Shown: piece by piece, positions 18,323 to 56,694 of the stretch
How positions within the stretch are numbered: the first letter of the stretch is position 1
Layout of the letters: every line of letters starts with the position of its first letter
Origin: Sulfuricurvum sp.
Lineage (GTDB): Bacteria; Campylobacterota; Campylobacteria; Campylobacterales; Sulfurimonadaceae
NCBI GenBank assembly: GCA_024637215.1
Contig: JAGXFM010000049.1
Coordinates: 1-56,694, forward strand
Direction: 5' to 3'
DNA length: 56,694 bases
Position numbers and translations under genes: made by a program
The notes under the pieces: generated by a model
What the model was told of the DNA's origin: nothing
Databases searched by the model: none
The model's input: the letters and a program-made list of their open reading frames with translations, nothing else

Positions 18323-19704
18323 TTCACATCCTTAAGATAATGATCAAAATAAATAATTTGCTCCAATGTACGGATTTCAGCCGTACCGCCTTGTGATATT
18401 CGGGCATTCATAGAGTGCTCAATCCCCAAATAAGCCATTACGTCTTCTTGGATTCGCTCATCAATGGCACGAAGTTCTGCATAGTCAATATCGCTCAAAT
18501 CAATTCCGAGCACTTCGGCACGAGCAACGGCGCGTCCGGTAATATGGTGCGCTTCACGAAACGGAACACCGCAATGTTCGACGAGATAATCAGCTAAATC
18601 CGTGGCACTGAGATGCCCGAGTTTGCATGCCCTTAGCATATTCTGAGGCTTAATCGTCATGGTTTTAAGTGCCGCTCGTAAGATTTCAAGAGAGATTTCA
18701 GCCGTTTCAACACTGTCAAATACCCCCTCTTTATCTTCTTGGGTATCTTTATTATAAGCTAACGGCAACCCTTTCATTACGGTCAAAAGCCCTATCAAAT
18801 TGCCAAAAACCCGACCCGTTTTACCGCGAAGAAGTTCAGGGACATCGGGGTTTTTCTTTTGCGGCATAATCGATGAGCCGGTCGAATATTCATCGGAGAG
18901 TTCAACAAAACGAAATTCATAGCTCGACCAGAGGATAATCTCTTCGGCTAAACGGGAGATATGCATCATTAACGTTGAAATATTAAATAAAATTTCGAGT
19001 GCAAAATCACGATCGCTGACCGTATCGAGACAGTTAATACTTACCGAATCAAATCCGAGCATTTGAGCGGTCATTTCACGGTTTATATTGTGCGGTGTGC
19101 CTGCCAGTGCGGCACATCCGATCGGAGAGATATTATTACGTTCAACAGAGCTCTCAAAGCGCTCAATATCACGTTTGAACATTGAAGCATACGCAAGTAG
19201 GTGAAAGGCAAAATTAATCGGCTGAGCGTGCTGTAAATGGGTCATTCCCGGAAGCAACGTCGTGGTATGATCTCGTGAAATATCTACAACCACTTCCATC
19301 AATGCTTTTATCTGTTCGACAATCTCACGATTTTTACGGAGTACATAGCGGCGAAAATCAAGGGCCACTTGATCGTTACGGCTGCGCGCGGTATGAAGTT
19401 TTTTTCCCGCTTCACCGATAATAGCGGTAAGCCGTTTTTCAATCGCCATATGGAGATCTTCATCCCCGATCTTCCATTCAAATGCACCGGATTCTATTTC
19501 ACGTAACACTTGTCCCATTCCCGCTTCGATCGAAGTGCACTCTTCTTCCGTTAAGATCCCTTGATGGGCTAGCATTTTAGCGTGTGCGACTGAGCCTTCG
19601 ATATCTTCACGGTAAAGTTTTTGATCAAACATGATTGAAGCATTAAATTTTTCCAAAAGGGTTGACGCATCTTGTGTGAAACGTCCTGACCACATCTTTT
19701 CCAT
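18319..19704 (-). CDS. argH: Argininosuccinate lyase
   Basis: Last step of arginine synthesis; it splits argininosuccinate into arginine and fumarate. It is 461 aa, the usual length for the fumarase/aspartase superfamily. The superfamily signature [12 protein letters not shown] is present near residue 275, as are the ArgH segments WSGRFTQDA at the start, TARSRNDQ, and [10 protein letters not shown]. The -10-like TAAAAT (minus strand) lies about 35 bases upstream. It is followed by OsmC with a 4-base overlap. Confidence 0.97.
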
Positions 19705-54107: not shown

Positions 54108-55315
54108 TTTGGAATGCCTTTATCTTAGCACTAAGAGAGATACGCCGTAGCGCCATGCGCTCGATTCTAACAACACTGGGGATTGTGATCGGGGTAGCAT
54201 CGGTTATCGCAATGGTAATGCTAGGAGATGCCACCACCGCATATGTCTCCAACAGTATCTCCAAACTGGGGACGAATATGCTGATCCTCCGCCCCGGGCA
54301 AGATCGCAAAGGACCGCGCAGTGAAGATACTACGGCAAAACGTTTTACTCATGATGACGTGCAAGCGATTCACAGAGAAATCAGTGATATTCGAGGAGTC
54401 GCTCCGATAGGTTCTAAAGGGGTACAAGCCGTCTATGGAAACCAAAACTACTCTACCACAATCGATGGCAGCGATAATGACTACTTCACCGTTAAAGATT
54501 GGGTTTTTGCATCGGGGCGAATATTTACCCCCGCAGAGTTGCAAGCGGGAAAATCGGTTTGTATTATTGGAGAGACGGTACATAAAGAACTTTTTGGTGA
54601 GCAAGATCCTATCGGTGCTTCGATCCGACTGGGAAGTTTTTCGTGCCAAGTGATCGGACTGCTCAACTCTAAAGGCTCTTCAATGTTCGGAATGGATCAG
54701 GATGATATTATCGTTGTTCCGATTCGACTTCTCCAGCGGCGCGTTAGCGGAAACCAAGAGATATCAATGATTCTCGTCTCCGCCTCGTCGCCAGCCGTGA
54801 TCGAAAATGTTAAAGCCTCACTCACCGCCCTCTTTCAAGAGCGCCGCCGTATCAAAATGGGAGAAGAAGACGATTTTAGCGTTCGCGATATGCGTGAAAT
54901 GGTACAAACCCTCACCTCGACTACAAAAATGCTGACCCTTCTTTTGGGTGCCGTCGCGACCATCAGCCTCCTCGTCGGAGGGATTGGGATTATGAATATC
55001 ATGCTAGTCTCCGTCACCGAGCGAACGAGAGAAATAGGAATACGCCTCGCCATCGGAGCATTGGAGCGTGAAGTATTACTCCAATTTTTGGTTGAAGCAA
55101 TCGTCCTCTCCTCACTAGGAGGGGTGATCGGAGTCGTTTTAGGGCTCAGTTTCGGGATTGGAATCAGTCTCTTTTTTGATCTTCCACTGGTATTTAACAC
55201 CTCCATTGTCCTTATTGCTTTTTTATTCTCAACGTTGGTAGGAATTGTTTTCGGCTATTTCCCTGCACGCAAAGCGGCCCGACTTAACCCTATCGATGCT
55301 TTACGGTATGAATAA
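54104..55315 (+). CDS. MacB-type permease (FtsX-like)
   Basis: The 403-aa permease has a first helix at about 20–45 (ILTTLGIVIGVASVIAMVML), a periplasmic MacB core domain (about 50–245) and three C-terminal helices (about 280–395; FtsX-like VGGIGIMNIMLVSVTERTRE). It forms the membrane part of a mechanotransmission pump that drives periplasmic substrates through TolC, here split from its ATPase. Substrate unknown; macrolides, peptides or lipid-like compounds are known for the family. The gene ends the operon. Confidence 0.93.
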   Translation: MIWNAFILALREIRRSAMRSILTTLGIVIGVASVIAMVMLGDATTAYVSNSISKLGTNMLILRPGQDRKGPRSEDTTAKRFTHDDVQAIHREISDIRGVAPIGSKGVQAVYGNQNYSTTIDGSDNDYFTVKDWVFASGRIFTPAELQAGKSVCIIGETVHKELFGEQDPIGASIRLGSFSCQVIGLLNSKGSSMFGMDQDDIIVVPIRLLQRRVSGNQEISMILVSASSPAVIENVKASLTALFQERRRIKMGEEDDFSVRDMREMVQTLTSTTKMLTLLLGAVATISLLVGGIGIMNIMLVSVTERTREIGIRLAIGALEREVLLQFLVEAIVLSSLGGVIGVVLGLSFGIGISLFFDLPLVFNTSIVLIAFLFSTLVGIVFGYFPARKAARLNPIDALRYE

Positions 55316-55354
55316 AATGTCGATATTACTTTACACAGATGAAAAGGAGTTATG

Positions 55355-55918
55355 ATGCAAGTCGGAACCGGAACATCGATTAATCCCTACACTCAAAGCG
55401 GCATGGCATTAAGCGAAAAAGAGACACAGGAATTCAAATCCAAGATCCAAAGCGGTGAGATATCGGGAAAAACTCTCTCTCAAGCCTATCTGGTCGAATA
55501 CTCTCTTAAAATTGAGCGTTATTCTTCGAACAATCTCCAAGCCCAAAGTGCTCCGTTTGATATTGCCAAAGTGAAAGATATCCTTAGCTCCATCGATTTT
55601 GAAGCAATCGGCTATACCGGTAAAGCGATTGCCGATATGACCCCCGACGAAGCCAAAGCGTTAGTGAGCGAAGAAGGATATTTCGGCGTCACCCAGACAT
55701 CGGACCGCTTAGCTAACTTCGTATTAAGCGGCGGAGGTGATGATGTCGAACGTCTTCAAGCGGGAAGGGAAGGGATTATTAGCGGATTCAATGAAGCTGA
55801 AAAAATGTGGGGAGGTAAACTTCCCGATATTTCCTATGAGACCCTTGAAAAAGCTCTTGCAAAAATCGATGAGAAAATCACCGCGCTCGGCGGTAAAATT
55901 TTAGATACAACGGTATAA
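55355..55918 (+). CDS. Conserved Campylobacterota protein, unknown
   Basis: The 187-aa soluble protein has no signal peptide. I do not recognise a domain with certainty; similar proteins in this class have been labelled hydrogenase-4 component G, a name I doubt here because no hydrogenase genes are near. Features are a serine-rich start (GTGTSINPYTQSGMALSEKE), GYTGKAIADMTPDEAKALVS and a helical end. The second of two adjacent ATGs is chosen because AAGGAG then lies 5 bases upstream. Confidence 0.7.
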   Translation: MQVGTGTSINPYTQSGMALSEKETQEFKSKIQSGEISGKTLSQAYLVEYSLKIERYSSNNLQAQSAPFDIAKVKDILSSIDFEAIGYTGKAIADMTPDEAKALVSEEGYFGVTQTSDRLANFVLSGGGDDVERLQAGREGIISGFNEAEKMWGGKLPDISYETLEKALAKIDEKITALGGKILDTTV

Positions 55919-55924
55919 GCTACT

Positions 55925-55954
55925 GATCCTTTTGGCATAGCGACCAAAGGGATC
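55925..55954 (+). terminator. Hairpin after the 187-aa protein gene
   Basis: GATCCTTTTGG and CCAAAGGGATC form an 11-bp stem (one T-G pair) with an 8-base loop, beginning 6 bases after the stop codon. No T-run follows; TAAAAATT follows. It may end or stabilise the transcript. Confidence 0.55.
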
Positions 55955-55996
55955 TAAAAATTACTCCTAATTACCCAGAATCACTTCATCGAAACG

Positions 55997-56005
55997 TGTT
56001 ATAAT
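55997..56005 (+). promoter_or_regulatory. Extended -10 promoter of CHASE-sensor gene
   Basis: TGT followed by a perfect TATAAT lies 46 bases before the ATG at 56052. It has the same form as the box at 7462–7470. Confidence 0.6.
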
Positions 56006-56051
56006 ATTCAATTATTACCCTATTGATGAGGGTATGGGTGTAAGGTTTTTT

Positions 56052-56675
56052 ATGACTACGGTTTCTTCCTCTTCTCCTCCGTCTCCAACACATAACTATC
56101 GTCTCAATGAATGGAGTATAGGGATACTTGTTTTCTGTATTACCACGCTTATATCTGCAGGGATAATTTGGCATTTTGATGATATGCATATCGAGAAGAC
56201 AAAGCATAAGGTCAAAGCTATCTCCGACAAAAATATATTCTATTTACATAAAAATATCGATCAAATCATGGCCCTTAGCTATCTTATCGCTTCCACCGTT
56301 TTGGAAGACGGAAGTGTCAATAATTTTGAATTTATTGCCGAAAAAGTTATTGCCCATTACCCCTTGGTTTCTGAAATAGCCCTTGCACCCGAAGGTATCA
56401 TTAATCGTGCGATCCCTCTTCACGGAAACGAAAAAGCAATCGGGTTCAATCTGTTCACCGATCCACAACAACAGGCTGAAGCATTCATGGCACGCGAAAG
56501 CGGAAAACTTACCCTCGCAGGACCCTTGCAATTAGTGCAAGGGGGAGAGGGAATTGTCGGACGTATGCCTATTTTTAGAGGTGCCGATAAAAAATTTTGG
56601 GGATTTGTCCTTATCGTTATCCCTTTTCCCGAAATTCTTCAGATAAATACGTTACAAACCCTCTCTCTCAACGGA
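56052..56675 (+). CDS. CHASE-domain membrane sensor (truncated at contig end)
   Basis: The frame from ATG 56052 is open to the window end, giving about 208 genuine residues. One N-terminal membrane helix (about 19–40, WSIGILVFCITTLISAGIIW) is followed by a periplasmic CHASE domain: LVSEIALAPEGIINRAIPL, IGFNLFTDPQQQAEAF, LAGPLQLVQGGEGIVGRMPI and WGFVLIVIPF. CHASE domains sense small molecules and sit ahead of histidine kinase, GGDEF or EAL modules, which are missing here. Residues coded after 56675 come from adapter sequence. Confidence 0.85.
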
Positions 56676-56694
56676 CTGTCTCTTATACACATCT
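56676..56694 (+). other. Untrimmed Nextera/Tn5 mosaic-end adapter
   Basis: The last 19 bases, CTGTCTCTTATACACATCT, are exactly the Tn5 mosaic-end sequence used as sequencing adapter in Nextera libraries. They reach the very last base of the window. This is library sequence, not genomic DNA. Confidence 0.97.

Follow-up and report, generated by a model that had tools for sequence, protein, structure and literature searches.

Features at the terminus of contig C69

The window, that is, the whole stretch of 56,694 bases that was analysed, is the complete contig C69 (G000:C69:1-56694) of a draft genome of 1,824,260 bases in 80 contigs, with a listed completeness of 83.95%. An open reading frame (ORF) that starts at 56034 and contains a second in-frame ATG at 56052 remains open to the end of the contig. 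The contig closes with a 19-mer, CTGTCTCTTATACACATCT, which occupies 56676-56694 (19/19 bases) and includes the final base of the window. As the window is the entire contig C69, the 19-mer marks a genuine contig terminus, not a boundary created by cutting out the window. The features are listed in Table 1.

Table 1. Features assigned at the right-hand end of the window.
Feature	Position	Strand	Evidence
Genuine 5' part (codons 1-214) of the probable CHASE-PAS-GAF-GGDEF-EAL gene	56034..56675	+	Open ORF; Pfam CHASE; relatives; C54
Tn5/Nextera mosaic end, in 5'-AGATGTGTATAAGAGACAG orientation; adapter read-through, non-genomic	56676..56694	-	Exact match and outward copies in the genome
Six artificial codons (LSLIHI), adapter-derived	56676..56693	+	ORF translation; frame-1 translation of the adapter starts with LSLIHI

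The sequence-only reading had identified the final 19 bases as the Nextera transposase mosaic end, and direct comparison bore this out: the terminal 19-mer is the exact reverse complement of the 19-base Tn5/Nextera mosaic end, with 0 mismatches. It was the sole match at up to 3 mismatches when both strands of all 56,694 bases were searched, and no match was found in 100 dinucleotide shuffles of the window. This copy is flush with the contig end and carries no adapter tail of its own. The 19-mer also encodes the final six residues of the ORF, LSLIHI. Within the ORF, Pfam CHASE (PF03924) matched residues 125-207 (E = 1.2e-13; model positions 69-163 of 189). When 55100-56675 was used as a megablast query, nothing in the phage records matched it.

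At the opposite end of the contig, an 18-base tandem repeat (2.6 copies of the unit CCGCTTGTGCTTCTGCTG) occupies positions 1-46. The repeat lies inside a minus-strand frame at 2-598 (199 aa), which is open at the contig end and showed no Pfam match at an E-value of 0.001. The exact unit did not recur in the 200 terminal bases of any of the 159 other contig ends. The start of C69 may be a contig break on this tandem repeat.

Continuation of the gene on contig C54

The 214 genuine residues of the CHASE gene were used as a query against 60 genomes, and matches were found in 23 of the 60, our own genome included. The best 15 loci outside our own genome (L022-L036) are open frames of 639-1215 aa. 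The weaker loci comprise an 881-aa frame in G055, a gene split over two contigs in G025 (155 + 864 aa) and, for the remainder, short partial matches to the query. Four relatives are 60-63% identical to the part of the gene that lies in the window.

We then took the 400 aa of L024 that follow the junction and searched them in our own genome. Among 15 matches, the strongest lay on the minus strand of contig C54, with 64% identity over query residues 1-399 (E = 4.4e-179); the next-best match began only at query residue 198. C54 comprises 18,550 bases, and the match starts at base 18548, two bases from the contig end. These two end bases, GA, are the same as the last two bases of the window before the adapter, and the junction overlap between C69 and C54 is limited to them. 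After this GA, C54 starts with the codon that follows codon 214 (GGA, 56673-56675). On C54, the frame stays open for 838 aa and encodes PAS, GAF, GGDEF and EAL domains (L160 184-2697 on the minus strand of C54); that is, the CHASE domain is followed by output domains on the C54 part, which is the arrangement of a CHASE sensor.

We also compared the two pieces, that of the window and that of C54, with the 15 relatives one at a time. In 11 of them, the window piece ended at a residue n and the C54 piece started at n+1, with no residue missing. In two (L028 and L032), the window alignment stopped 6-7 residues short and the length of the junction differed by 3 residues. In the last two (L035 and L036), the best C54 alignment started at residue 401 and is uninformative on the junction.

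The rest of the gene is found at the end of C54; therefore, the CHASE gene was truncated by the assembly. The join of C69 and C54 rests on protein homology and on a single full-length candidate in the genome, rather than on DNA overlap. The natural gene most likely encodes some 1050 residues with the architecture CHASE-PAS-GAF-GGDEF-EAL. Judging from its domains, we take the product to be an enzyme that probably functions in cyclic-di-GMP turnover and has an extracytoplasmic sensor. A protein of this architecture is present in part of the genus.

Copies of the 19-mer in the draft genome

An exact search of the draft genome returned 20 copies of the 19-mer across 19 contigs (C69 and 18 others), and the control, the same pattern read backwards, returned 0 copies in our own genome. 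All 20 copies point outward and lie 0-18 bases from a contig terminus. A tail of CCGAGCCCACGAGAC after the 19-mer is designated the i7 side of the adapter and a tail of GACGCTGCCGACGA the i5 side. Five copies are flush with the contig end (C8, C22, C37, C69 and C76), and the other 15 extend beyond the 19-mer, 11 into an i5-side tail and 4 into an i7-side tail. The extension measures 8-18 bases in 12 of these 15 copies and only 1-3 bases in the remaining three. In C20 and at the start of C73, the whole 14-base i5-side tail is present and is followed by TATG in both, which would fit the index of a single library at this position.

The portion of PMC6122167 that gives the trimming adapters for Nextera XT has both of them starting with this 19-mer, after which one continues with CCGAGCCCACGAGAC (here the i7 side) and the other with GACGCTGCCGACGA (here the i5 side). 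PMC8269240 describes a cloning vector whose tandem mosaic ends consist of this 19-mer, given in either orientation.

We also surveyed 200 bases at every one of the 160 contig ends. Besides the 20 ends with a full copy, four of the remaining 140 finished on exact prefixes of the 19-mer (9, 16, 17 and 17 bases), and three control words gave end prefixes of at most 5 bases. No additional copies at up to 4 mismatches were found in the last 70 bases of the contig ends. In total, 24 of the 160 ends bear adapter sequence. The other 136 show none; therefore, the adapter is not the sole cause of the breaks in this assembly.

Overlaps between contig ends were also compared. The 38 bases that immediately precede the adapter in C38, C40 and C76 recur at adapter-free ends of C59, C25 and C77, respectively, and these three contigs continue past the common 38 bases with different sequence and without the 19-mer. 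The constant length of 38 bases in three cases fits a de Bruijn graph in which two branches leave a single node. Shorter common ends were found for C53/C24 (11 bases) and C31/C33 (10 bases) and may be due to chance. No exact overlap of 10 bases or more with another contig end was seen for the remaining 15 adapter ends, to which C69 belongs.

Among the adapter-free ends, four pairs overlap exactly over 113-141 bases (C66 start/C77 start, C75 end/C7 start, C3 start/C9 start and C34 end/C56 start), and these may be neighbouring contigs that were left unjoined. C7 and C12 are both 8244 bases long, but the 200 bases at their ends differ whichever way they are oriented.

Origin of the terminal 19 bases and alternative explanations

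The match to the mosaic end is exact over 19/19 bases, the copies stand outward at contig termini, adapter tails are present where contigs extend past the 19-mer, and the genome continues with other sequence. The terminal 19-mer is an ordinary laboratory artefact and not bacterial DNA. The 19 bases are almost certainly a 3' read-through of Nextera (Tn5 tagmentation) adapter left on the contig, with the gene continuing on C54. The sequencing read would have been longer than its DNA fragment and would have run past the end of the fragment into the mosaic end, and the adapter would have stayed on the read before assembly through missing or incomplete trimming. The assembler would then have ended the contig on the adapter, presumably where the assembly graph forked at the border between genome and adapter. 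In the organism, position 56675 would run, without a mosaic end, into the sequence that was assembled as C54.

The further claims of the sequence-only reading agree with these results. It had called the 19-mer a leftover adapter, and all 20 genome copies stand outward at ends, with 15 of the 20 running into Nextera-specific sequence. It had placed the end of the genome sequence at 56675, where codon 214 aligns with the relatives and C54 starts with the next codon, and it had attributed the truncation of the CHASE gene to assembly, which is supported by the remainder of the same gene beginning at the C54 end. Its view that the last codons are artificial also holds, as LSLIHI is translated from the adapter.

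A genuine insertion would offer another explanation, in which the CHASE gene is disrupted at 56675 by the end of an engineered mini-Tn5 or of a natural Tn5/IS50, a repeat on which the contig then breaks off. In favour of this, mosaic ends are the termini of a transposon, repeats do terminate contigs, and the 20 copies, taken alone, are compatible with a repeated element. However, 15 of the 15 copies that extend run into i5-side or i7-side adapter and not into a transposon body. The gene resumes on C54 with no missing residue in 11 of the 15 comparisons, and for three other copies the 38-base flank runs on, without the 19-mer, on another contig. In addition, a pattern search of 60 genomes, including our own, found the 19-mer in 0 of the 59 other related genomes. 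We therefore regard an insertion at this position as highly improbable. For the copies with long adapter tails, a transposon insertion was refuted.

The 19-mer could also have been a chance or native chromosomal sequence, in which case the gene would encode a naturally short protein ending in ...NGLSLIHI. The frame is open through all 19 bases, and MAFFT sets LSLIHI over the LTRIHP/ITRIHP of the four relatives, so that I and H look like invariant columns. However, the 19-mer arose in 0 of the 100 shuffles, its copies in our own genome lie exclusively outward at contig ends, the best 15 related loci stay open for 639-1215 aa, and the residues that belong at the junction are found on C54. A native origin is thus very unlikely, and the alignment of LSLIHI is an adapter remnant imitating homology. 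A literature search found no paper on the artefact peptide SLIHISEPTR. That some of the sampled cells carry a synthetic insertion flanked by mosaic ends here, besides the intact gene represented by C54, is less probable still, and we give it next to no weight.

Adapter read-through, as the preferred explanation, has a bearing on data hygiene only: C69 needs trimming at 56675, with removal of 56676-56694. LSLIHI should not be read as a C-terminus, since in alignments it is able to pass for homology. The practical gain is that what looked like a short CHASE protein can most likely be read as the N-terminal part of a complete CHASE-PAS-GAF-GGDEF-EAL protein.

Comparison with Nextera adapters and other public assemblies

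We scanned the GTDB contig collection for the exact 19-mer and found at least 119 stretches that contain it, several of them from shared sequencing projects; thus, the artefact is not peculiar to the genome of C69. Among the matches listed (119 stretches), there were 133 copies, and 121 of these lay no more than 60 bases from the outward-facing end of their stretch. Among these listed near-end copies, 119 of the 121 were flush (20) or carried an i5-side (59) or i7-side (40) tail, and the other two (L078 and L131) had another continuation. L078 and L131 are haloarchaeal contigs (Natronococcus and Halorubrum), in which CTGA follows the 19-mer near the contig end without a Nextera tail.

The other 12 of the 133 listed copies lay further in. 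Seven of the 12 meet N within 1-4 bases, four carry a Nextera tail (two of them on one contig), and one (L112) continues with other sequence. The stretches in which a run of N follows the 19-mer within 1-4 bases are actinobacterial scaffolds (L050, L082, L103, L119, L135, L148 and L159). That is, adapter remnants flank scaffold gaps too, as observed in these seven scaffolds. Our literature search turned up no study that deals specifically with mosaic-end remnants in public assemblies, although such a study may exist.

The copy at the end of C69 is identical to the 19-mer of the Nextera/Nextera XT read-through adapter and stands outward at a contig end. In contrast to the Nextera adapter, the C69 copy halts at the last base of the 19-mer; hence, whether it belongs to the i5 or the i7 side is not readable from it. 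Adapter remnants in other public drafts are mostly flush or Nextera-tailed at ends, similar to the copies in the genome of C69, whereas some of them (12 of the 133 copies listed) occupy an inner position, unlike the end-bound copies of the C69 genome.
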